Assembly: GCA_012845835.1 (NCBI GenBank)
Contig: JABAKD010000023.1
Span: forward strand, 23,561,108-23,625,107
DNA from: Undaria pinnatifida
Taxonomy: Eukaryota; Sar; Phaeophyceae; Laminariales; Alariaceae
DNA: 64,000 bases
Reading direction: 5' to 3'
This document shows positions 2,666 to 64,000 of the stretch, in pieces. The translations under genes were made by a program, and so were the position numbers. Below the pieces are notes generated by a model. That model was not told the DNA's origin, did not search any database, and saw only the letters and a program-made list of their open reading frames with translations. How positions within the stretch are numbered: the stretch's first letter is position 1; each line of letters begins with the position of its first letter.

Positions 2666-2935
2666 ACAAGGGCTGCGCGTGGGTGCGTGGGTGCCGGCAC
2701 TCGCCGGAACCCATGCCTCGGGTAGGGCAGGGAAGGAGTTGGAATTGTTCCATCCGACACAAACAAAAAAATGAACTTGAAAGGAATGCCAAGAGTTTCA
2801 TCCGAAATCAACAGTTTGGCACATGTGCGGTACCGCAGTACATCAAAATGATGGAGAAATAACGCTTGCACTGGCTACGTGTACTTGTACATACTACGTA
2901 CACACTCGGATAATATGTGGGATCGTTCGTACTCA

Positions 2936-3724
2936 GACCGGTGAGAATGTAAGCCAAAAGTTTGAAATTTCCGAAGATCCCAGTCAAAATTTGCCTGGAC
3001 GGTCGCCTATGGGCCCAATTAAGTACAGTTTGTTTTTGGAACTTTCCAAATTCCGGATAAAATTGATTTATCGCGGCGATCTTGGCCAACATCAGCTTGA
3101 GACATTCTCAAGCAGATTGTGGATTAGACGGGTCGTAATTTCGTGTTCTCCACACACTTCGACGAAGTCATCGACAGCGTCGTGAACTCTGAACGTGGCG
3201 AGTTCGTTAGGGGCTCCGAATCCCTCTTGGTGTACAGCGCTCACTGTACGGCCGGTGATTTGCGGCGGGCGCCAATCAGGCTTCTGTTAAAAACACATTT
3301 AGCGGCTGGTGTGCAGAAAACTGAGCCTAAAACTCTTTAAAGTCTCCCAACGAGCAAAAAACAGAGTTTGAGAGGATGTGACGGAAGACCACAGGACAAC
3401 ACAGGCAAACTTTCATGCCCTAGGGCATGGACCGAGATGAACTAGTCAGCACTGTCACCTACACCCACATGACCTCGGAGCGAAAAGCAATGACCATGGG
3501 TTGTCTCTATCTCGAGATGGAAGGTCAACCGTGTTTGTTGGACAACGTTGATCAAGGCTTGACGAAAACTAGACAAATTGACCTGTTGGACCGCATGACC
3601 CAAAAAAGAGCCAGAAAAAAAAAATATTAATCGTTCTTCCTCCATAGCGACGTTACCCGGAATATTTCAGCAACTAACCTCAAAAAAAAGTTTGGAAACG
3701 TTTTGGCCAAATTATCGGCTTTCC
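2936..3724 (+). mobile_element. 800-bp Harbinger-like MITE family, copy A (one end lost)
   Basis: Homologous over its length to the complements of 21227-22030 and 62527-63324. The left end starts GACCGGTGAGAATG, equivalent to the terminal inverted repeat of the other copies (GACCxxTGACAATGGAA). On the right, homology stops at about 3724 inside the inverted repeat, so the last dozen bases are lost or diverged and no target duplication is visible. The family carries a frame of about 100 codons that is open in copy C but interrupted in this copy. It resembles no transposase I know. Confidence 0.8.
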
Positions 3725-5239
3725 AGCAGTGTTCCACCACGATGGCCTCTGCAACGCAGCAATCGACGACGAAATAAGCCTTCTCACGTACCACGAACCA
3801 CCCAACACAACGAGCAGGAGACAGAAGCAGCAGCAGAGCAATATATGGATGGTACCATGGTGGTAGTAGCTGGTAGCACCTACTAAAAGCACGCGTGTGT
3901 GATACGCCATCACCCGCAGCGAGCTGCCGACTCCACGATGTACAAAATCTTAGTCGAGCCACTTGATCGCTACCAGTATTTTCCCTACTAGGTGACATAT
4001 GACTGCATAATGTATATGAGCCTACGAGTACGTACAAAACCTGTTTTCGTGATTTTTGGCTTGCCGCGACGAGAAGAACCCGCAAAACAAAAGCAGCAGC
4101 AGCAGCAACAGGGACAGTACCACTGGCAGTTGCGCGAGCCGCGACGACACCAACCTGGCCTCGGTCAACTCCGAAGATCACCGAGACAGGCGATGCATCG
4201 CGCGGCGCCTCTCCTCGGACGATCCAAACTGCATTCTTCTTTTTTTGGTCCGACTCTACTTTTTTGGCCCGACTGATGCTCTTTTTTTGTCAGTTTTTCC
4301 GACCAGGCGTCGTTACTTCGTTTAATGTTCCATCTTGCTACATGTTCCTTGCTAACCACAACGCTGCGATTCAGCCGCATCCATCCGACGAAAGGCGCTG
4401 GAACTGCTGTATACAAGCTGGGGGAATCTTTGCTGCTACCGAAGCGTGCTGTGCGGGGTGCACACCGCTGTGTGCTGGTCGTTGTGCACACCGCTTGCTT
4501 GTGTTGTTGGTTGTTCCCTTGTTGTTGCCTTGACTGTTCTTTTTCAACGGCCACGTGATTTTCCTCGTGATGCTACTGGTGCTGATGGTGCTGCAACTGG
4601 GTGTAGTTCTCGACGCACCTTATACATCCGAGTCTTTCGGACAAAGTCAGATGCCAATAATGTTGTTTGTATCCAAGCAAACTGTCCTTTTGGGAGCGAC
4701 AAATTGCATTAGACGCGTTCATGGTTCACGGGGTGGCATTCAACGGAGCACGAAGGGTGCGGGGCGTTCAAAACGATTCTCTCGCCACAGCAACACTGTG
4801 AAAAAATGTGGAGTACATCTACCGTCAATACTCACTCGACGATGGACCGCGAAGAAACATGGACAGCGACTCTACTGAGCAGCAACGCAAAGAGCTGACA
4901 AAATGCAATTCCTACCACTGCAATTATACTATACAAAAGTTACCCCTTTGTATTTGCGCACTACCAATCCCCCTGTCAAGATTCGAAAAATGTTCGAGCA
5001 TGCTACCCAAAATCCAAGATCGCGCCAACTTCTCGCTTGTCTCTCTCAGCCCCCGCACGCGTTTACGGTGAGGTAAGCAGGGGGAACGAAAGGCGAGGGG
5101 CGTTCAAGCCTATCCTCGAAGAGAGCGCTCGAAGAAATAAAAAAACCCTCGATATATTGCAAGTGTCGAGATTCCGATACTGAAGCCGACACGGTAAAAA
5201 AATATTTCCGACGCATGGTCTAGGATTTGTCATACATTA
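3725..5239. other. stretch with no recognisable gene
   Basis: Holds short CAG runs (about 4093-4110) and a T-rich patch at 4225-4300 with repeated TTTTTTGGTCCGACT-like words that also occur at 32400-32610. The longest frame (4165-4554, minus) has biased Gln/Arg composition and no domain I recognise, so I do not call it a gene. Confidence 0.45.
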
Positions 5240-10640: not shown

Positions 10641-10848
10641 TTGGCCCTATTTTTGCAATTACTTTTTTTTCTCCGCTATACCGGCCGGCAACTGGCATAC
10701 TTCAGCCTTGAGTACCACTAGTTTAACGTATGTATATTGCTGTTAACACTGACGAATCGTCACAACTTTCTACCTTGGGATGTACGTGTATGTTGAGCCA
10801 CCATTATAACAAATTGCTGTTGTTGATGTTCACGCTGACAACTTGTAT

Positions 10849-10945
10849 ATATTTTTAATCCTCCAGCGGATGACGAAAAATAAAGATCAAGCTCACCACA
10901 GCCCAACGTGTTTTTCATACACGTCGTGAGTCGATTTAACTCAAA
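10849..10945 (-). mobile_element. ultra-short SINE-like retroposon, copy 1
   Basis: On the minus strand it begins at TTGAGTTAAATCGAC, continues to a CATCC..GGAT hairpin and ends in an A/T-rich tail. It is flanked by TGTAT at 10844-10848 and 10946-10950. Homologous to 22082-22177 and 44941-45047. Confidence 0.8.
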
Positions 10946-11263
10946 TGTATTCGCAATCCAACTGACAACATCCGTACGTATTAGGAGGCATATGTATTCA
11001 ACGGCAGGATCTGTACAAACGAGCGGCTGGTGTATTATGCAGCTTGCAATGATGACGTGCTAAGAACAAGTTATAAATATTACTATGTTCACTTTGGGCC
11101 GGTACCCGGCACGCAAAGAGCAAAAATAAACGTACGCAACTCCAAAAACAAAACTAAAAACGTAACATAGCAGCATTGGTTGAATACGCATCAAGGCTCG
11201 AACATAAACAGGAGCAAAAACAAAGAAAATAAAACACCATGAAAAACAAGAAAATATATTTGC

Positions 11264-11937: not shown

Positions 11938-12660
11938 CGGGTCAGGTCAAATCTCGCGGGTCGGGTTGGGTCGGGTCGTGTCAGCTGACCCGCCCCGACC
12001 CGCGAGAACTTCGAGACGTATTGACCCGACCCGACCCGACCCGACCCGACCCGATCCGACCCGACCCGATCCGATCCGACCCGACCCGACCCGACACGAC
12101 CCGACCCGAGCCGAGCCGAGCCGACCCGACACAACCCGACCTGACCCGCGAGATTTTGAAAACCTCCTGACCCGACCCGACCCAACCCGCGAGATTTTAA
12201 AGGCCCGTTGACACGACCCGATCCGCCACACTCCGAGTGAACCGCGAGGTGCGGGTTCCACGCGGGTCGGGTCGACTGGACCCGTGATCCGACCCGTGAG
12301 GTTTTGAAAACCTCCTGACCCGACCCGAACCGACCCACGAGATTTGGAAGGCCTGTTGACCCGACCCGATCCGACCCGCCACACTCCGGGTGACTCGTGA
12401 GGTGCGGCTTTCATGCGGGTCGGCTTGACTGGACCTGTGATCCGACCGGTGAGGTTTTGAAAACCTCCTGACCTGACCCGAGCCGAGCCGACCCGCGAGA
12501 TTTTGAGGTTTTAAAAACCTCCTGACCTGACCCAAGCCGAGCCGATCCGCGAGATTTTGAAGGCCTGTTGACCAGACCCGATCCGACCCGCCACACTCCG
12601 GTTGATCCGTGAGGTGCGGGTTTCATGCGGGTCGGGTCGACTGCACCCGTGATATATTTC
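11938..12660. repeat. GACCC pentamer array with about 180-bp higher-order units and an orientation switch
   Basis: The first 45 bases carry the motif as GGGTC. At the palindrome GTCAGCTGAC (about 11986-11995) it flips to GACCC, which then runs almost pure to 12130. From about 12170 three longer units of roughly 180 bp follow, each with CGCGAGATTTTGAA, GACCCGCCACACTCCGG, TGAGGTGCGG and GGTTTTGAAAACCTCCTGACC blocks. Arg/Pro/Asp/Gly/Val frames in it are repeat products. Confidence 0.9.
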
Positions 12661-13332: not shown

Positions 13333-13726
13333 CGTTCGATGTGGTTTGACCCAACAAACAATAGGAGAAACATGCGGTGGCTACTTTGGGTCAGCGGGAT
13401 ATTGTAGTATTGGAATGATACGTGGAATATTCCTATAGGTGCCTGTGGAACGCTGAGAACAGTCCTAAGAACTTTCTGGTATTAGCATTATGGAATTTCG
13501 GGACTTCAGAAGAGTACCCCGTGGTACATGGAGCCGAGCACGTAGGTTTCGCATACCGGCGCCTACTCGCCCACTCCATCTCTTCCCCTCTGATCAGCAT
13601 CCAGGACAAGTTGATAAAAACATCTATATACCAAGTCCTTCACATTGTCTATTGCAGCGAAGCTCGCGCCCTGACACTGGGGTGCAAGAAGCACGTTATT
13701 CTTTGCATAACCGATTTATTTCAACA
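13333..13726 (+). repeat. 5' LTR of the Copia element
   Basis: Homologous to 18631-19038 from GTTCGATGT to TTTATTTCAACA. The partner LTR starts TG and both end CA. Confidence 0.9.
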
Positions 13727-15049: not shown

Positions 15050-16918
15050 CTCATTCCACATGACTCATTCAGCTGACCCGTTGAGTGACGTACGACTGCG
15101 CAACCACAAGATTAGGATCGGTGACAACCACCTGATCGACGGTGTGGGTTATGGCACGCTCACTGTAGTCTTTCCCGGAGATCTGACTGTTAAACTGTTG
15201 GATGTTGGCTACGTGCCGGCTTTGGCGTTCAAATTGTTTTCGCTGATGGCCGCGCATGAGCATGGAGTAGGTTTCATGACCGAGGAGGAGGGCTTGTGCA
15301 TTTCACGTTTCAATGGGAGGTTGAGGTTCGAGGATGATGGATCTAGTTACTTCAACTTCGCGTACAAAATAGAGCCAGACAACGGCTATGTGCCGTTTCC
15401 CCTCTTGACCCCTGACTTCACTGAGAACCGCGCCAAAAAATGATCGCGATTCTCCAAAGGTGCTTCCCGTGTTGCCCCCGGTAGTGCCGCTTCTGCTGAG
15501 ATTGCTGTAGACGTCAACGTATTCCATCGCGTGCATGGTCACTCTAATTAACTGCTGTTGATAGAGACTGCGAACTCACTTGGTGTAGAACTGTTAGGAA
15601 CTCTTAAGACCCTGCACTGTCTGTGCTATGGCGAGAGGTTACCGCAAGCCTATCCCCAGCAGTGCTAAGTCACGTGCTTCAGAGACATTGGGACGGGTCT
15701 TCGTTGACCTGAGTGGCCCTAAGAGAACTCGTTCTCTAGTGGGTAAGAGGTACCTGGTATATCATACTAGTGAAGGATGATTTCTCTCGTTAGGTGTGGG
15801 TATACTCTGTGAGGCACAAATCGGAAGCCGCAGACGCGTTTAGGAAGTTTTTGGCTGATGTACACGCCGACGGTGTCTGGTCGAAGGTAGAGATTGCAAG
15901 GTCCGACACGGGGGAGTATTATATGGTGGTGAGTTTGGAGAGGTGTGCAAACTGTATTGCATCAAGCAGGAATTTACAAACGCTAACAGCCCAAAAAAGA
16001 ATGGTGAAGAGAGCGCTGGGCATAATTCAGAACGAAGTACTTGCCGCGGGCATCCAGGCTCCTATCATTTTCCTGATCGTTCAATTACCGCCAACCGGGT
16101 CCCTGTGGGCAGAAACGGTGCATTGGTCTTGTGACGGCCTGAACCACACCGCAGTCACTGCCAACCCTGGTACCAAGTCTCCGCATGAGATGTGGCATGG
16201 TACTGCCGACCCTGCCTCACCACACCCGCGCCTTCGCGCAGCGTACTGCCGGTGGAACCGCCCGTCCAAGTCGTCACCCCGGGCCGAGAGCTGTTTATAC
16301 CTCGGGACGGGCATCGAGCACCCACGTGAGTCTTTGCGGGTGCTCACGCGGGCGAACAAAGTGGTGGAGACTCGAGAGGTGAGGTGGGAGGCGACGCTTG
16401 ATGTGGAATCCCCGTCAACCCAGCTGCCGGAGATTCCGGAGCAGGGAGGGACGCAGAGAATAGAGGACGCGCCAGGGCTGCAAAGGACGGAGGATTTTGT
16501 CTCCGATTCGACGACTTCCCTACCGAGATTGGGGAGGGGAATTCCTCACCAACTTCGTGTGGTGCCTCCGATGACGCAAGCTAGTGGCGATTTTCGAGCC
16601 GAAGATGTAGAACAGAACGATACATCAACGGCCAGCAGCGAATCGTCCGACAGCGATTTCTCCCTTGAGGCTGGGAGTGACGTGTCAACCTCGAACAGTG
16701 GAGCCCTGAGCGACACGTCAACCTCTGACGGTGAAGCTCTGGGCGCCCCTGAAAGTGGAGCACAGACCCCGACGGCGGTCTGGACTGCTGCACGCCAACT
16801 TAAAGCGCACATGTCAGAACTGGGCAATGGTGAAGATATTCGGGAGGGCCGTACGAGGGCGCAGACCAGGGCGCTCAACCGGGAAGCGGCGGCGGGGCCG
16901 ATCAGTGCGATCCTGTGA
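15050..16918 (+). pseudogene. Copia protease-integrase region
   Basis: A frame at 15060-15443 with LLDVGYVPALAFKLFSL matches the segment linking protease to the GAG-pre-integrase zinc region (LxxVLYVPxLxxNLLSV in the family). Further on, PHEMWHGTADP, near 16170, equals the SPYELWHGxxP block after the integrase core, and a long Ser/Asp/Glu-rich linker leads towards reverse transcriptase. Fossil. Confidence 0.8.
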
Positions 16919-17732: not shown

Positions 17733-18480
17733 GTGAAAAGGGAACCCTGGAAATTTCGCACTGAGTTAATCAGAAACGTTGCTGACCGTTTCGGTATCAC
17801 TAAGACCAGCCCAATCCCTGCTTCACCGTCGTTGGACCTCAAGCACGTGAGTGATGAGGAGCCGGCGATGAACGCGAATTTCCGCGAAATTGTGGGAAGT
17901 CTGATGTGGAATGCAAACCAGACGAGACCAGACATCTCCAATGCAGCGCGAGCGATTGCGCGGTTCTCGCACGATCCTAAGGAAGCATACGTTAAGGCTG
18001 TTAGGAAGATTCTCGAGTACTTGAGCGATACGGCTCACTTGGGCTTGACTTTAAGCAGAGAAAGTAAGTTGGAGGATGTACAGTTGGAGTATGACATAAC
18101 GACGCACGTAGACGCAGATTACGCCCACAGAGCCGAGGGCAGGCGTTCGGTCTCTGGCGTAGCTGTTTGCTGCGGACGTACGCTTGCATCCTGGTTTTCT
18201 AGAACGCAGAAATGCGTTACATTCTCCAGCACCGAGGCCGAGTATGTGGCGATGGCCGAGGGGGTGAAGGAGGCCTTGTACGTGCGAGGAGTGTTGTTTT
18301 TCTTGATGCCTAGTCTTGAATCGCCGAATATTGGATTGCTTGACAATAACTAAGGGGGCGATGGACTTAGCCAAAACCCCGCTGAGCTCGTCCAACAGCA
18401 AGCACATCGATCTGAGGTATCACTTTTTGCGCGAGTTGGTGGGGAAGGGAGACTTTTCCGTGAAGTAACTAAGGACAGAG
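17733..18480 (+). pseudogene. Copia RT thumb and RNase H region
   Basis: Contains IVGSLMWNANQTRPDIS, THVDADYAHRAEGRRSVSG and FSSTEAEYVAMAEGVKEAL, the standard Copia RNase H signatures with their acidic residues. The frame ends near 18353 in the region that normally carries the last RNase H helix and a KHIDLRYHFLRE-like block (seen at about 18400-18440). Fossil. Confidence 0.92.
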
Positions 18481-18630: not shown

Positions 18631-19038
18631 TGTTCGATGTAGCTTGGCTCAACAAACAATAGTAGAAACAATGCAGGGGCTACTTTGGGTTATCCGACAG
18701 GGTATTGCGGGATATTGTAGACGGGAATGATACGTGGAATATTCCTGTGGGTCCTTGTGGAATGCTAGGAACAGCCCTAAGAACTTTCTGGTATTAGAAT
18801 TATGGAATTTCGGGACTTCGGAAGAGTACCCCATGGTACATGGAGCCGAGCACGTAGGCTTCGCATACCGGCGCCTACCCACCCACTCCATCTCTTCCCC
18901 TCTGATCAGCATCCGGGACAAGTTAATAAAGATATCTATATACCATGTTCTTCACACTGTGTGTTGCAGTGAAGCTCGCGCCCTGAGACTGGGGTGCAGG
19001 CAGCACATTGTTCTTTGCATAACCGATTTATTTCAACA
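18631..19038 (+). repeat. 3' LTR of the Copia element
   Basis: Starts TGTTCGATGT and ends TTTCAACA; followed by the GACGA target duplication. Confidence 0.9.
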
Positions 19039-21226: not shown

Positions 21227-22030
21227 AACCAATGACAATGGAAAGCCGCTAAAACGTTTCCAATTTTTTTTTGGGGAATATTTGCTGAACGATTCCGGGT
21301 AACGCCGCTATTGGGGAATAACGATTAATATTGTTTTCTGGCTCTTTTCTTGGCCATGCGGTCCAACAGGTCAGTTTGTCTATTTTTCATCAAACCTTGA
21401 TCAACGTTGCCCACCAAACACGATTGAACTTCGATCGCGAGACAAAGCTAACCCATGGTCAGTGCTCTTCGCTCCAGACAAGGCCACATGCGTGTAAGTG
21501 ACAGCGCTGAAGAGTTCATCTCGATCCATGCCCTAGGTCGTGAGAGATTGCTTGTGTTGTCCTGAGGTCTTCCGTCACATCCTCTCAAAATTCTGTTTTT
21601 CGCCCGTTGGGAGACGATAGAGCGTTCTTGTCTCAGTCTTCTACACACCAGCCGCTGAATGTGTGTTTAACCGAAGCCCGATCGGCGCCCGCCACAAATC
21701 CCCGGCCGTAGGGTGATCGATGTACACCAAGGGGGGGTCGGGGCCCCTAACGAGCTTGCCACGTTTAGCGCTCACGACGCTGTCGTTGATTTTATCGAAC
21801 GAAGCGTGTGGAGAACCCGAAATTACGCCGCGTCGAACACAACATCTGCGTGAGAATTTCTCAAGCTGGTGTTGGCCAAGATCGACGCGAGAAAAAGTTT
21901 TATTTAACGGAATTATGGAAAGTTTCAAAAACTATCAATACAAAAATTGGGCCCATAGGCGACCGTTCAGGCAAAGGTTGGCTGAGGTCTTGGGGGATTT
22001 CAAACTCTTGTCCTTCTCTCGTCACCGGTT
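21227..22030 (-). mobile_element. Harbinger-like MITE family, copy B (complete)
   Basis: 804 bp, bounded by AACCAATGACAATGGAA on the left and its imperfect complement ending GTCACCGGTT on the right. TTA stands on both sides (21224-21226 and 22031-22033). The empty homologous site is at about 30293-30300. Three-base TTA/TAA duplications are typical of PIF/Harbinger; no transposase is encoded. Confidence 0.88.
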
Positions 22031-22081
22031 TTACTGTCTAGTACGTATACAAAAAATATTGCCATGAAACGGATTAACTAA

Positions 22082-22177
22082 CTGAGTTAAATCGACACAC
22101 GACGCGTATGAAAAAACGTGGAAGTGTGGTGAGCTAAAGCTTTATTTTTCTCCATCCGCCGGAGGATGAAAAAAAAA
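22082..22177 (+). mobile_element. ultra-short SINE-like retroposon, copy 2
   Basis: 96 bp from CTGAGTTAAATCGAC to a poly-A tail, flanked by AACTAA at 22076-22081 and 22178-22183. The paralogous sequence at 30340-30350 has a single ACTAA and no insert, which proves insertion. Confidence 0.9.
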
Positions 22178-22822
22178 AACTAATATTGTTGTTTTTGAGT
22201 TTCGTACACAGGTATTTCAATCAAGATCATGGAAAAACACGAACACAAAAAGTAAGCAATGCACTTGTACATTCAGTCGGTATTGGTTCCTTGCTCCAGC
22301 CTTCGTTATGTGCGGAATCAAGACTTTGAGCTCAGCCTTCCGTGCTACAGTTCCGTCCAGCAGTGACTGAGAGGAACCAGGAAGCGTTAGTGACATGTTG
22401 AAGTGCATTGCCAAGCTGTTCACGTCCTGAAAAACTGAAAGACTTCCTTCATCTGCGGCAAACATACAGGTGGACATTTGGTGATAAAGGATTTTAATAT
22501 ACGAGTGAATAGAACTGAAAAGAAGTGCGGTCCAAGGAAAAAACGAGAATGAAATGTCATGGATGGGATACAAGCATTCATGCCGGAGCAACTATAACAA
22601 GTCAGGAAGGACGGAATGGACTGGGTATACACTGCTGCTGCGCACTGCCAAGGAAAGTACCATGAGTCTGGATATACACTGCTGCTGCGCACTGCCTATT
22701 CCAGGGAAGTACCATGAGTGTGCCAAAGCATGCCGATGCTCACTAGTCATGCTCACAACTCGTCGGTTCGCAAGTCATGCTCACAACTCGTTGACTTTGC
22801 ATGATGAGTGGTGTGCTTGCAG

Positions 22823-30076: not shown

Positions 30077-30920
30077 TAGGATATATAAAATGATGCATTA
30101 CCAATATCTAAGATAAACTCGCAAGATAGCTATTTCTTAACAGAACCAACCTCAAGATTGTCATAAGTTATTTATTAGCAAAACCAACTTCAAGATTGTA
30201 AAATTGATTTACTTCTCGACAGAACCTACCTCACGCTTGCTAAGTTCAATAATAAGTAACAACATTATACCTGGTGTCACAAAGTATCGGCCTTGTAATG
30301 TCTAGTACCTATACAAAAAATGTAGCCACGAAGCGGATTAACTAATATTTTTGTATTTCTGTTTTGTACACAGGTATTTCAATCAAGATCGTGGAAAAAC
30401 AACTATACAAAAAGTAAGCAATGCACTTGTACATTCAGTCGGTATTGGTTCCGTGCTTCAGCCTTCGTTATGTGCGGAATCAAGGCTTTGAGCTCAGCCT
30501 TCTGTGCTAGAGTACCGTCCGGTAGTGACTGAGAGGAACCAGGGAGCCTTAGTGACATGTTGAAGTGCATTGCCAGGCTGTTCACGTCCTGAATAACTGA
30601 AAGACTTCCTTCATCTGCGGCAAACATATACGTGAACATTTGGTGACAAAGGATTTTAATATACGAGTGAATATAACTGAGAAGAAGTGCTGTCCAAGAA
30701 AAACGAGAATGAGATGTCATGGATGGGGTACAATCATTCATGCCGGAGCAACCATAACAAGTCAGGATGGACGGAATGGACTGGATATACACTGCTGCTG
30801 AGCACTGCCTATACAAGGGAAGTACCATCAGTATGCCACAGCATGCCGATGTTCACTAGTCATGCTCACAAGTCATGCTCACAACTCGTTGACTTTCGAT
30901 TATGAGAGGTGTGCTTCGCG
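30077..30920. repeat. dispersed repeat family Y, copy 2 (carries the empty sites)
   Basis: Uninterrupted homologue of 21047-22822. It holds single-copy versions of both insertion sites used in copy 1: GCCTTGTAATGTCTAG at about 30290 for the MITE and GGATTAACTAATATT at about 30335 for the SINE-like element. Confidence 0.88.
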
Positions 30921-42240: not shown

Positions 42241-42660
42241 CTTCCCTTTTTCAGGCGGTTGATGTCGTCGTCACCCGTGGACACAGAAGCAACCTTGCAG
42301 CGACCAGCACTATTGTAAGCTCTACCGCCCCTCTATAGTGTGGTCGGTGGGGGGACTGCCTTGTTCGGACGTTATACTACCCACCTTGGTGCTGTTAGTA
42401 TTGCCGTTACCTGTTAACACAGCAGCGAATTTACAGCAATCAGCAATACTGTAGGCGTGATCGTCCCCCTATAGTGCGAACGGTGGGGAAACTGCCTTGT
42501 TCGGGGGTTATACTGCCCATCCTTGTGCGGTTGGTATTTTCCGTACCTATTGGCACAGCAGCGATAATGCAGCGAGCAGCACTACTGTAGGCGCGACCGT
42601 CTCCTTACAGTGCAGTCGGTGGGAAAACTACTTTGTTCGGGCGTTGTACTGACCTTGTCC
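42225..42660. repeat. 136-bp tandem repeat
   Basis: TTGTTCGG occurs at 42361, 42497 and 42633, exactly 136 bp apart, within units sharing ACAGCAGCGA, CAGCA.TACTGTAGGCG.GA and AGTGC...CGGTGGG. Confidence 0.88.
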
Positions 42661-43980
42661 TCTGGTTGGTATATGTGCAACCCTCTACTGTGCTACTCCC
42701 CCCTACATGCCTTCGTTCCCCTTGCCGCCTCGGTAAGGCATGCTGCGAAGCATGCCCTAGCAGGCTTGTAGCGAGTGGGGGGGGTATTTCTGGCGGGTGT
42801 AAGGCTGGACTCACCCTCAAGGAGTGGTACCTTCTTGCTGCTGCGTGTGGCCGCGAGGCTCGGGCGTGGCGGTAGAGTTGGGTCGTACGTGGTGCGTTAG
42901 GCATGGTCACTCACGATTCGCGCGTCTTTTCAGGCAGCAGGGGCGGAGCAGCAATGCTTAATCGGGATGCTCGTGCGCGGAGGCAGGCGCCACCACGAGC
43001 CACGCTACGGCGCAGTCTCGGTTTGCGTGGGGGGGAACTGCGCCGGCAGGAGGCTGGATTCGACGACGAAGGAGGAGGGCGACTGGCCGTCGACGGGCGG
43101 GGAAGGGACGGATTGAACTCTCCCTGAACGAGAATTTTTGTTTTTCAGATCAGCACCGCAAGCTGCGTGGAGCATTTTATTTTGCTTTTTTACGGAGGAG
43201 AAGGGGAACCGATTGAAATTGAGTGTGGACGAGAGCAAGTGCGAAGGAGTTGGCCGAGTGAACTAAGGCGATGAGGCGGCCACGGAGAACCACAGCAGGA
43301 GGATGGCACACGGAGACCCACGACCGGCACGCACACCATCATCATGAGAGCAGCGATCGCCTTTATTTGGTCAGGGTGATTTTTACGAGGCAGTAGTACA
43401 ACAGGTTACTTACGTCACTGATTTCTGTAAAGTTTGTAGAAGAATTGTATACCCTTCATGGGGAACGACCCGCCGCAAATTTCAATTTTCAGGCACGGGC
43501 GTCGTAGCTGCGCTGCAACCTGTCAAATAACTCGGGAAGGAGGGGCGATCATTGATATTTGTACTGCGGTTTTTGGTTCCATTGCTCTTGTTTCACTGCA
43601 TGCCCGCGGGTCGTCACTCTGACAGCACTCCAAACAGCAGGCGCGTTCGTTTTTACTCACGATCACCGCGCGGTTCGTACGGTGCAGGCAGCCCAACCGC
43701 TGTGGTTTGTAGCCGCGAGTTGGTTAGTTGTGGAAACGGGGGAACTCTATGCTGTAGTTGAGTGGATTCACGCCGCCATGTGAGTTCAGTTTGCACATTG
43801 GACCTTTTAACTTGTTGTGCGCCTTCATCCGTATCGTGCGTTTTTAGGCGGGAAAGCGTAGTATTTCCCGGACAAATTTTGATTTCACGTGCTTTTTCGG
43901 ATCTTCGTAGGGCTCCAGCACCTTTGTGCGACCACGGGCTCTAGAGTTTTTGACAAGAGTTAATGTGAGAAAACAACACT
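42661..43980. other. stretch without a recognised gene
   Basis: A GC-rich part (42690-43130) has a 74-codon frame at 42903 with Arg/Gly-rich composition and no homology I know. The rest is unremarkable. Confidence 0.4.
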
Positions 43981-43985
43981 ACTGA

Positions 43986-44720
43986 TAGGGCAGATGCTAC
44001 CCGTTTGCGCGATCGTCTACTGTGCTACCCCCCCTACACTACTGTCGGGGCAGATGCTACCCGTTTTTATGCGGCTAGCTGTGCGATCCTCTACTGTGCT
44101 AGGGCAGATGCTACCCGTTTTTTATACGGTTGGCTGCGCGATCCTCTACTGTGCTACCCTCCCCCCTACTGTGCTAAAGCAGACGCGGCCCGTTTTTATG
44201 CGGCTAGCTGTGCGATCCTCTACTGTGCTCCCCCCCCCCCTACACTATTGTTAGGGCCGATGCAGCCCGTATTTATACTGTTAGCTGTGCGATCCTCTTC
44301 TGTGCTACCCCCCCTACAATACTGCACCTAGGTTAAATGCTGCCTGTTTCGGTGCGATGAGCGTCGACGTGTTAGGCGAACCTTTACTGTGCTGCCCCCC
44401 TACACTGTGGATGGGATAAATGCTGCCTGTTTTGGTGTGATGGGCGTGGGCTTCTCGTGCAACCCTTTACTGTGCTACCCCCCCTACACTTCACCCAGGT
44501 TAAATGCTGCCTGGTTTCGTGCGATGAGCGTCGGCGTGTTGGGCGACGCTTTCCCGTGCTGCCCCCCCTACACTGCACCTAAGATAAAAAATGCTGCCTG
44601 ATTAAGTGCGATGGGTGCAGGCGTATCTTTACTATGTTGCACCCCCCCCCTGCACTGAGGTTAGGGTCAGTGCTGCCCATTTTTGGCCCCTTTCACTGCG
44701 GTTCGTGCGGGCGTTACCCG
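43986..44720. repeat. minisatellite of about 60-75-bp units
   Basis: About ten units of the form GATGCTACCCGTTTTTATGC, GCTAGCTGTGCGATCC, TACTGTGCTACC and a C run, progressively changing to TAAATGCTGCCTG variants after 44330. A related lone unit lies at 42660-42705. Confidence 0.9.
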
Positions 44721-44940
44721 TATACCCTACGGTCAGACTGGGCGCTGCTCTTATGTTGCGGTTTTGGTGGATTGTGCCTTTCCTACCGCTGTCCTCCTTT
44801 GACACTGCTAGTTGGCATGGGTGCTGCCATCACTGATTCTAGACGGAGTCGAGGCCCATATCTTGCCGTTTGCTGGCACATGGATATACCTACAATGGGA
44901 TCCGGAGGGTGTGCCAGCCAGCGTTGGGCTGCGAAAGTAA

Positions 44941-45047
44941 CTGAGTTAAATCGACACACGACGCGTATGAAAATACGTGGAAGTGCGGTGAGCCAAAGCT
45001 TTATTTTTCCTCATCCGCCGGAGGATGAAAGAAGAGAAAATAATAAT
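44941..45047 (+). mobile_element. ultra-short SINE-like retroposon, copy 3
   Basis: Starts CTGAGTTAAATCGAC and ends in an A-rich tail with AAT repeats. Flanked by AGTAA at 44936-44940 and 45048-45052. Closest to copy 2. Confidence 0.85.
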
Positions 45048-45603
45048 AGTAATAATACCGCTACTTGCAGCAGGGACACCACAACAACATATCTGCCTGT
45101 ATAGCTTCTTCACACGTCGTTCCGTCCCGCCACCTTCCCCCACACCCCCTCCTTCCGCTGCCCTCCCAACAGAAAACAAGCAACAACTTTTGTCTACCAG
45201 TGAGGAAGCGGGCTACTCGGGGGCAGGCTAAGGTCTCCGACGCGCCCCAATCTGGATGCCCACGACACAGGGAGACATCGCTCGAGATCCCGCGACTCAA
45301 GACGGGGGGAACCACCAGAGGCGGATTGCGGTGACGAGACAGAAGACGGAGCACCATACGACCACCCGGACCCACCAACCAAGAGGGTCGACTCGCCGGT
45401 TCGGGCAGAGAAGAAGACGGACCAACCCCTACCGGACTCAGGGGCGTCTCGACGCCAGCTTTCGCCAGTCCCGCGGGAGCGCCACCAGCTGACCCCCCCC
45501 GCGCTCGACAGGGAACCACCGCCGCCATCTGGGCTGTCCGCGCTCGACAGAGCGCCACCCTCCGAGCTCCCGTGACCGGGGCGCCCATGCCAGCCCCCAG
45601 GAC

Positions 45604-48689: not shown

Positions 48690-49280
48690 GCAGTATTTTT
48701 GCGATTATACGCCAAAGTGTGAGAAGGCCACGACGCGAGGAACCGTGGGTTCGGATTCCCGTCATTCTCCCGAGGCCTGGTGTTCCTGAGGGGTACACTA
48801 CAGGCCCAAAGTGCCGAGGACTGGTGTGCCCAGAGAGGGACATTGCAGACTCAAATGCCCAACGAGGCTACCGACTAGTCGACACCATCAGTATAGGACT
48901 ACTTTTCGGGTGCCGTGACGGCGGCTTATTACGAGCTTCCGCCAGCGAGTGAAGAGGACCCGAAGCGAGAAACCGCGGATTCGAACTCACATCATGCCCC
49001 GAGGCCTGGTGCTCCCGGGGGACACTACAGGCCCGAAGAGCCGAAGACTGGTGTTCCCACGAGGAGACATTGAAAACCCAAATGTCCAATGAGGCTACCG
49101 ACGGGTTGGCACCGTCGGTTTTTGCCATTTTTTGGGAGCAGTTAGAGCGGATTCTCGTGTTTTTCCGCGAACGAGCGAAAAAGACTCAAGGCGGGAAACC
49201 GCGGGTTCGGATTCGCGTCGAGCTACCGAGGCCTGGTGTTCCCGGACGGGGACATTGCAGGCCCACACTCCAACACGGTT
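48690..49280. repeat. about 230-bp tandem repeat, 2.5 units
   Basis: Each unit has GCGAGAAACCGCGG.TTCG, CGAGGCCTGGTG.TCCCG, GGGGACA.T.CAGGCCC and AATG.CCAA.GAGGCTACCGAC. The first block recurs near 48740, 48970 and 49195 and resembles a tRNA B box, but no tRNA fold is present. Confidence 0.85.
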
Positions 49281-55747: not shown

Positions 55748-56068
55748 TGTGGACAGTGGAGCACCAGATAGCATGTAGTGCTTGTGGTAAGATGCGACCT
55801 GATCTTGGTGGTGATTGACTGTGAGGATCTGATGTGGAGTGTGAACGTTATCTAGATCTGAAGACAGAAGGGGTTTCTACTTATCCTCTTCTGGATTTTG
55901 GTAATGGGATTCGGAGATGAAGTTAAGATCGCTTGTTTTCTCGCGTTCGGAATAAATACAACAATTTGTCTCTCTTTTTAGAACCTGGATGTTGCCGACC
56001 AGCCCCCCTCAGGCCAAGGGGGGATACTTTCTGGTCAGTAGACCTTGCCTAGCTTAGGCGTTTCTACA
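55748..56068 (+). repeat. 5' LTR of the 55.7-59.4 kb Ty3 element
   Basis: Includes a strong hairpin at 55997-56036 (GACCAGCCCCCCT paired with AGGGGGG and CTGGTC) conserved in the other LTR. Confidence 0.92.
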
Positions 56069-59111: not shown

Positions 59112-59433
59112 TGTGGACAGTGGAGCACCAGAGAGTGTGGTAGTGCTGGTGGTAAGACACGACCTCATCTTCTTGGTGGTGATTGACTGCTGAGGATCTG
59201 ATGTGGAGCGTAAACGTTATTTAGATCTGAAGACAGTATGGGTTTCTACTTATCCTCTTCTGGATTCTGGTATGGGGATTCGGGGATGAAGTTAAGATCG
59301 CTTGTTTTCTTGTGTTCGGAGTTAATACAACTTCTCTCTCTTTTTAGCACCTGAATGGTGCCGACCAGCCCCCCTCAGGCCAAGGGGGGATATTCCTGGT
59401 CAGTAGACCTTGCCTTGCGCAGGCGTGTCTACA
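59112..59433 (+). repeat. 3' LTR of the 55.7-59.4 kb Ty3 element
   Basis: Homologous to 55748-56068, with the hairpin at 59363-59401. Confidence 0.92.
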
Positions 59434-62279: not shown

Positions 62280-62526
62280 TTATTATTTTTATAATAAACG
62301 CAAGTACCAACAACCCTGACAAAGCCATCCACCCACAAACCATCCATCATACACATGTTAGACGTAAAAACGTGGTTCGTGTCCTACAGACTCACGCTCT
62401 TATTTTTCTTCTATAATAGGGTAAGAGTAGCCAGCTTTTATTCTCGAATGCTGCAATAATATTAAATATTAGATCACTACTGCATTCGTACTCCTCCCGA
62501 TATGTATGTGCCAAAACCCGCCATTA
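62280..62526. repeat. array Z, second block, left part
   Basis: Units with CGCAAGTACCAACAACCCTGACAAAGCC and ACGTGGTTCGTGTCCTACAGACTC, interrupted at CGCCATTA (62526) by MITE copy C and resuming at 63325. Confidence 0.85.
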
Positions 62527-63324
62527 GACCTATGACAATGGAAAACCGATAATTTGGCACAAAAGTATGCAAAATGTTTTAGCGGTTATTTAAGGAACGA
62601 TTCTGGGTAACGTCGCAACGGGGGAAAAATGACTAAAACCTTTTTTTCTGGCTCTTTTTTGGGTCATGCAGTCCAACAGGTCAATCTGTCTAGTTTTCTT
62701 CAAGCCTTGACCAGCAATGCCCACAAAACACGATTGACCTTCGAGCTCGAGATAGACACAACCCAAGGTCACTCCTCTTCGTTCCGGACAAGGTCGCATG
62801 AGTGTAGGTGACAGGGCTGAAGAGTTTATCCCGATCCATGCCCTAGAGCATGAGAGGTTGCTTGTCTTGTCTTGTGGTCTTCCGTCGCATCCTCTCAAAA
62901 TTCTGTTTTTCGCCCTTTGGGAGACGATAGAGAGCTTCTGTCTCAGCTTTCTACACACCAGCCGCCAAATGTGTTTTTTAACAGAAGCCTGCTCGGCGCC
63001 CGCCACAAATCACCGGCCGTAGAGTGAGCGCTCTACACCAAGGGGGGGTCGGAGCCCCTAACGAGCTCGCCACGTTTAGAGTTCACGACGATGTCGTTGA
63101 TTTCGTCGAACGAAGTGTGTGGAAAACACGAAATTGCGCCGCGTCTAATCCACGATCTGCTTGAGAAATATTTAGGCCGATGTTGGCCAAGATCGCCGCG
63201 AGAAATCACTTCCGGAAAGTTTCAAAAATAATTCTACCAAATTGGTTCCATAGGCGACCGTTCAGGCAAAATTTGGCTGGGATCTTCGGGAATTTCAAAC
63301 TTTGGCCTTCCATTGTCACCGGTC
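62527..63324 (-). mobile_element. Harbinger-like MITE family, copy C (complete)
   Basis: 798 bp bounded by GACCTATGACAATGGAAAACC and the complement of GACCGGTGACAATGGAAGGCC; TTA on both sides (62524-62526, 63325-63327). It sits inside a Z unit: CGCCATTA joins TTATAGCAAAG across it. It carries a 138-codon minus-strand frame (62590-63006) with GCDGRPQDKTSNLS and LKKTRQIDLLD that is unrelated to any transposase I know. Confidence 0.9.
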
Positions 63325-64000
63325 TTATAGCAAAGAAAACTGAAAAACAAAGAACAAAATAATAGAACCACCCTCGGGTAGAGAAAACTTATCTGCATAT
63401 TGAACCACAAGTACCAACAACCCCATAAAGCCATCCACCCACAAACCATCCACCTCACATATTTTAGACGCAGAAACGTGGGTTCGAGTCATACAGATTC
63501 GTTCCGTTTTTTTTTTATTTTAGGATGATGGCAGTCAACTTAAATTCTCGAATGCTGCATGTATTAATATTAACATATTAGATCACTACTACTGTCTTCA
63601 TACTAACGATGTATACCAAAACCCGCCACTGTAGTGGAGAAAAACAAAAAACAAAATAATAAGACCACCCTCAGGTAGAGAAAACTAACTTACGCGTATT
63701 GTACCACAAAAAACAACAACCCTGACAAGCCACCCACCCACAAACCATCCGCCATACATATGATGGAGCAGGATAGTAGAAACTACAGCAATAAATTTAT
63801 AAAGTAGACATTATGTTGGATCTAGCTCAAAATTCGCCACCTAGAGCAAAAATACCAACACCAGCCTAAATATTGGAGAACAACAAAATATGATAAAAGC
63901 TGCATGTACAAAAATTAAGAAAAATAATAATAATGACAGGACCCCTCCCATTAAGTGGAAAAACTCACCCATATGGCATACTACAAGTACCAACAACGCA
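63325..64000. repeat. array Z, second block, right part
   Basis: CCACAAGTACCAACAA at about 63406 and variants near 63705 and 63983 (spacing 299 and 278 bp), with CATCCACCCACAAACCATCC. Continues past the window edge. Confidence 0.88.

Follow-up and report, generated by a model that had tools for sequence, protein, structure and literature searches.

A 97-bp repeated sequence of Undaria pinnatifida is very likely the 3′ end of a 405-bp poly(A)-tailed retroposon

Results

The 97-bp sequence as part of a longer retroposon

A sequence of about 97 bp occurs three times in the window (the whole 64,000-nucleotide stretch of Undaria pinnatifida DNA that was analysed), and a first-pass annotation described it as an ultra-short SINE-like retroposon family. 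We conclude with high confidence that this sequence forms the 3′ end of a longer element, a non-autonomous retroposon of U. pinnatifida that is 405 bp long, poly(A)-tailed and present in thousands of copies. No published description of the 405-bp element was found in the open-licence literature.

The three copies and the sites around them are as follows.

Copy 1: 10843 to 10961, minus strand; an older copy, consensus 303 to 406 plus an A-rich tail, 80–81% identity
5′ target-site duplication of copy 1: 10962 to 10969, minus strand; GTTGTCAG (8 bp), the last base of which may belong to the element
3′ target-site duplication of copy 1: 10835 to 10842, minus strand; GTTGTCAG (8 bp)
Copy 2: 22082 to 22177, plus strand; 5′-truncated, consensus about 319/321 to 408 plus an A-tail, 96.6–96.7% identical to the consensus
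5′ target-site duplication of copy 2: 22076 to 22081, plus strand; AACTAA
3′ target-site duplication of copy 2: 22178 to 22183, plus strand; AACTAA
Paralogous empty site of copy 2: 30288 to 30425, plus strand; a single AACTAA at 30340 to 30345
Copy 3: 44885 to 45055, plus strand; consensus 265 to 408 plus an A-rich tail with an approximate end, 93% identity

Three copies with A-rich tails were found at the places first annotated. The extent and the AACTAA duplication given for copy 2 were exact, whereas the extents given for copies 1 and 3 were not. Copy 1 had been placed at 10849–10945 with a TGTAT duplication; its homology continues to consensus 303 and its real duplication is GTTGTCAG, and we take TGTAT to be a chance match. 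Similarly, copy 3 had been placed at 44941–45047 with AGTAA, but its homology reaches back to 44885 and AGTAA is internal element sequence (consensus GCGAAAGCAACTGAG). The sole duplication found for copy 3 is ATACC (5 bp), which is not above chance, as 21% of shuffled pairings give at least 5 bp. Thus, of the separate target duplications ascribed to the three copies, AACTAA was right and the other two were wrong. The empty site reported at about 30340 proved to be a paralogue carrying one AACTAA, to which the joined flanks of copy 2 align with 119 identities, 17 mismatches and 2 gaps. It is a diverged repeat copy and not an allele, 22178–22818 and 30340–30916 being 83% identical. The common 97-bp boundary arose because the three copies compared were truncated at different points.

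Several other repeats were seen in the window. Direct repeats at 13334–13726 and 18632–19038 (86.5% identical) lie around ORFs at 15794–16918 and 17733–18353 that look Copia-like by eye, and the pair is probably an LTR retrotransposon. Direct repeats at 55748–56068 and 59112–59433 (88% identical), around ORFs that by eye are retroelement-like, are probably another LTR pair. A repeat of about 800 bp is present at 2935–3725, 21248–22029 and 62524–63327 (80–82% identical), and the first of these copies has the opposite orientation to the others. Short-offset self matches of 69–79% at 11988–12653, 42269–42672, 43983–44615 and 48710–49264 suggest degenerate tandem arrays.

Extent of the element

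The genome (511,146,479 bases in 68 contigs) was searched with copy 2 (583 first-look candidates, of which 40 were scored and 30 fetched) and with the upstream part of the element (2,364 such candidates, again with 40 scored and 30 fetched). The two fetched sets overlap in part; for example, L038 and L017 are the same copy. A further 30 copies were taken as the first pattern matches in contig order (L061–L090). Because copies were chosen for an exact core pattern or a top score, these sets are biased toward young copies.

With copy 2 as the query, the homology extended upstream into a common longer sequence in 27 of the 30 fetched loci, the exceptions being L001 (the window copy itself), the central copy of L024, and L030. 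The same extension was present in 26 of the 30 position-ordered copies. In addition, among the first-listed 100 of the 4,675 matches to an 18-mer at the 5′ end of the core, 86 kept the element's 10 letters at −17 to −8 when up to three mismatches were allowed, and some of the other 14 appear to be shifted or diverged instead of truncated.

With the upstream part as the query, 29 of 30 loci began at CCGAGG and L032 began 2 bases later. The flanks of the loci starting at CCGAGG were unlike one another, except for those of L059 and L060. The searched 3′ word was found at a spot fitting a unit of about 405 bp and was followed by an A-run in 26 of these 30 loci; the exact word was not seen in the remaining four. 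The consensus is 405 bp long before the poly(A). Its 5′ end is constant at CCGAGG, its 3′ end is constant at CATCCGCCGGAGGAT followed by A's, and the last bases ahead of the tail read ...CTTTATTTTTCCCCATCCGCCGGAGGAT(A)n. The longest open stretch is 75 codons; the element is thus short and non-coding. The supposed ultra-short family is therefore the 3′ part of a longer unit. The first-pass annotation had named membership of a longer known element as grounds for abandoning it; the longer unit is established here, although no description of it in print was found.

Target-site duplications and 5′ ends

Target-site duplications were counted in 87 distinct copies (90 loci plus the window copies, with duplicates removed), and in the shuffled control each element was paired with the upstream flank of another locus. 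Duplications of at least 8 bp were found in 37 of the 87 copies versus 0.6% of the shuffled pairings, and those of at least 6 bp in 52 copies versus 7.8%; in the other 35 copies the duplication was shorter than 6 bp or none was found. The description of a retroposon family bearing A-tails and target duplications was therefore sound. The length of the duplication is variable, with a median of 10 bp among the 43 fetched loci having at least 7 bp, and a weak target preference was seen as an A two bases ahead of the duplication (−2) in 28 of these 43. The duplication and target counts use the best-scoring copy of each stretch, so that L024, L069, L074 and L079 gave a neighbouring copy in at least one count.

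The 5′ ends of the position-ordered copies, measured on the matched copy itself, lay at consensus 1–2 in five copies, which are full length, and were scattered over 41–344 in the 25 truncated ones. The target-site duplications are the signature that an enzyme of the LINE type leaves in target-primed reverse transcription.

Copy number and age

Three core patterns gave 3,177, 3,532 and 4,675 exact matches genome-wide, and the same patterns written backwards gave none in each case. Since only exact matches were counted, the family size is underestimated. An exact core pattern had no match in two contig collections (viral_contigs and genome_contigs), neither of which consists of kelp genomes. Older relatives with 67–80% identity are found in the fetched flanks and in the window, and the lineage is therefore not solely recent.

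Some neighbouring copies lie in opposite orientation and form inverted pairs (L069/L070, L079/L080, and G000:C30:21894235 with 21895465). In L042 (2228–2705), an old copy of the element is split by an expanded (GGACA)n array.

Mobilisation and the search for a partner LINE

The element carries no ORF, is truncated at the 5′ end in the manner of LINEs, and is flanked by duplications. It is most likely a LINE-dependent non-autonomous retroposon like RTEX-N1 of Ectocarpus. Transcription of source copies, probably by a polymerase other than Pol III, would yield a compact non-coding RNA with a strong fold. The reverse transcriptase of a LINE would then act in trans, nicking the target and priming on the A-tail, and reverse transcription would often halt early, leaving 5′-truncated copies such as copies 1–3 of the window.

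A search of the genome for the reverse transcriptase family gave 3,526 candidates, of which 150 were scored. Among the listed matches, frames open over 1,250 and 1,267 aa turn up repeatedly and represent two LINE families, as follows.

LINE family A: loci L092 to L094; 3′ ends read in L092 and L094
LINE family B: loci L091 and L095; 3′ ends read in both

The two families have T/C-rich 3′ UTRs, one with a (CA)n tail and the other with an (AAC)n tail. By eye we labelled both as RTE-like. In Pfam, RVT_1 alone was found over 1,061 residues of family A, and a 308-residue C-terminal piece of family B matched no family; a search of the genome with PF14529 gave no hits. The comparison with the 3′ tails of resident LINEs proposed in the first-pass annotation could thus be made for two families, and no 3′ similarity to the element was seen. 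Nor did the element resemble any part of the stretches of families A and B in L091–L095, which do not include the 5′ ends.

These LINE comparisons also bear on the possibility that the element arose from an autonomous LINE by internal deletion and retains the 5′ and 3′ ends of its parent. Truncation of the LINE kind together with an A-tail would fit such an origin, as would the non-autonomous Ectocarpus family of about 600 bp, which has a 3′ end in common with RTE-X LINEs (PMC12477816). Against it stand the lack of similarity to the examined stretches of both resident families and the absence of any second upstream sequence that adjoins the 3′ end repeatedly: for three parts of the 3′ end, sequence other than the normal upstream one was found at 10, 43 and 8 places, and by eye none recurred apart from one adjacent inverted pair. 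We consider this derivation rather unlikely, though more probable than a canonical SINE, a separate short family or an origin from a small nuclear RNA.

For the LINE-dependent retroposon, our first guess at a partner is a LINE that recognises poly(A), with L1 as a candidate, because both resident families have other tails and no 3′ sequence in common with the element. The L1-type target site is TT/AAAA, from which the A at −2 differs; this therefore counts against a partner of the L1 type. The kelp Saccharina is reported to carry Jockey as well as L1, CRE and RTE-type elements that inserted recently (PMC4421812), and a LINE using poly(A) is therefore possible.

Promoter, fold and origin of the RNA

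Canonical SINEs are transcribed by Pol III and have features such as A and B boxes. The length, copy number, A-tail and duplications of the element would all suit a canonical SINE with a Pol III promoter and a head derived from tRNA, 5S or 7SL RNA, but the sequence-based tests did not reveal either. The window gave no Rfam hit at the gathering score. One full-length copy gave six matches at E up to 10, none over the gathering score, the best being RNase P with 20 bits against a cut-off of 100. ARAGORN predicted no tRNA in the window and none within the element in 10 loci, in which the one tRNA found (tRNA-Arg, in L037) lies upstream of the element. Hence the comparison with tRNA, 5S, 7SL and snRNA models by Rfam and ARAGORN, which had been proposed earlier, gave no head from any of them. 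Shuffled sequences matched or exceeded the best pair of A and B boxes in 221 of 300 cases, in agreement with the initial remark that convincing tRNA boxes are lacking, and runs of T4 (at 81) and T5 (at 384) lie inside the element. The absence of such heads and of boxes above the shuffled level, and the internal T-runs, are therefore evidence against Pol III, without proving another polymerase, and a canonical SINE is improbable.

The predicted fold of one full copy was far more stable than those of shuffled sequences (z −4.87), and that of a short copy was mildly so (z −2.05; equalled by 6 of 200 shuffles). In the 3′ region, none of 21 predicted pairs had a two-sided change that kept the pairing. 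Over the whole element, with a structure derived from one of the aligned rows, 7 of 113 pairs had such changes compared with a shuffle mean of 4.1; 18 of 500 shuffles reached 7, and one to three pairs were found when the structure was slid. Covariation among the diverged relatives thus gives weak support to the predicted fold of the whole element. No internal duplication was detected in the element, 198 of 300 shuffles scoring as high.

We tentatively put forward, as a possibility that we hold to be less than even, that the element is a high-copy retroposon from a long-lived lineage without Pol III ancestry, whose compact, strongly folded RNA is the product of a different polymerase and moves by way of its poly(A) tail. 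If so, a retroposon with a head not derived from Pol III transcripts may represent a brown-algal class of SINE-like elements.

Possible separate short units

A distinct ultra-short SINE family of about 97 bp, with its own start, might exist alongside the longer element. Starts near consensus 319–325 are seen in copy 2 (L001), the central copy of L024, and L030, and L069–L071 begin at 324–329. Moreover, when the normal upstream sequence was excluded for one part of the 3′ end, which gave 43 places genome-wide, 5′ ends were commoner at the five offsets closest to the start of the core (9, 8, 7, 7 and 8) than at the next three, consensus 318–320 (0, 2 and 2). The breaks are spread about evenly over the five offsets, and there is therefore no single 97-bp start. 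Only four of the 30 position-ordered copies start past consensus 315 (at 324, 324, 329 and 344), and the upstream continuation in 86 of the 100 listed 18-mer matches likewise speaks against a discrete unit with a common 5′ end. We judge a separate family to be very improbable. Comparing by eye a small number of truncated copies can thus suggest a false ultra-short family.

That the copies derive from a small nuclear RNA is the least probable reading of all, because, although TTTATTTTTC is followed by CATCC..GGATG, which resembles an Sm site and a 3′ stem, no snRNA family exceeded its Rfam gathering score and the element is 405 bp long, not just its 97-bp 3′ part.

Discussion

The published U. 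pinnatifida assembly comprises 511,280,173 bases in 114 scaffolds with 50.14% GC, and its annotation counts 326 SINE copies (17,815 bp, 0.003%) and assigns 36.1% of the genome to "unknown" repeats (PMC7058681). The copy number of the element is far above that of all SINEs counted there. Given 4,675 exact matches to a single core pattern against 326 annotated SINEs, the retroposon was probably counted among the unknown repeats of that annotation, or among its LINEs. Its precise insertions could become markers for kelp populations or phylogeny.

Like the canonical Pol III SINEs (Alu and the tRNA-SINEs), the element is short and non-coding, has an A-tail and variable duplications, and is present in thousands of copies. 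It differs from them in that no tRNA, 7SL or 5S head and no boxes above chance were found, in containing T4 and T5, and in being mostly 5′-truncated. The resident LINE families A and B are retrotransposons of the same genome and possess reverse transcriptase, but their (CA)n and (AAC)n tails differ from poly(A) and their 3′ ends are dissimilar to that of the element.

The report on RTEX-N1_Ec32 of Ectocarpus describes a non-autonomous element of about 600 bp with more than 6,000 copies, which is thought to depend on LINEs and whose 5′ region is of undetermined origin (PMC12477816). Compared by description, the Undaria element resembles it in being brown-algal, short and non-autonomous, in having thousands of copies, in its probable dependence on a LINE, and in a 5′ part without a recognised source. 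The 3′ end of RTEX-N1_Ec32 matches RTE-X LINEs, whereas no such match was found for the Undaria element. Together, the two elements point to brown-algal retroposons whose 5′ region has no recognised source.
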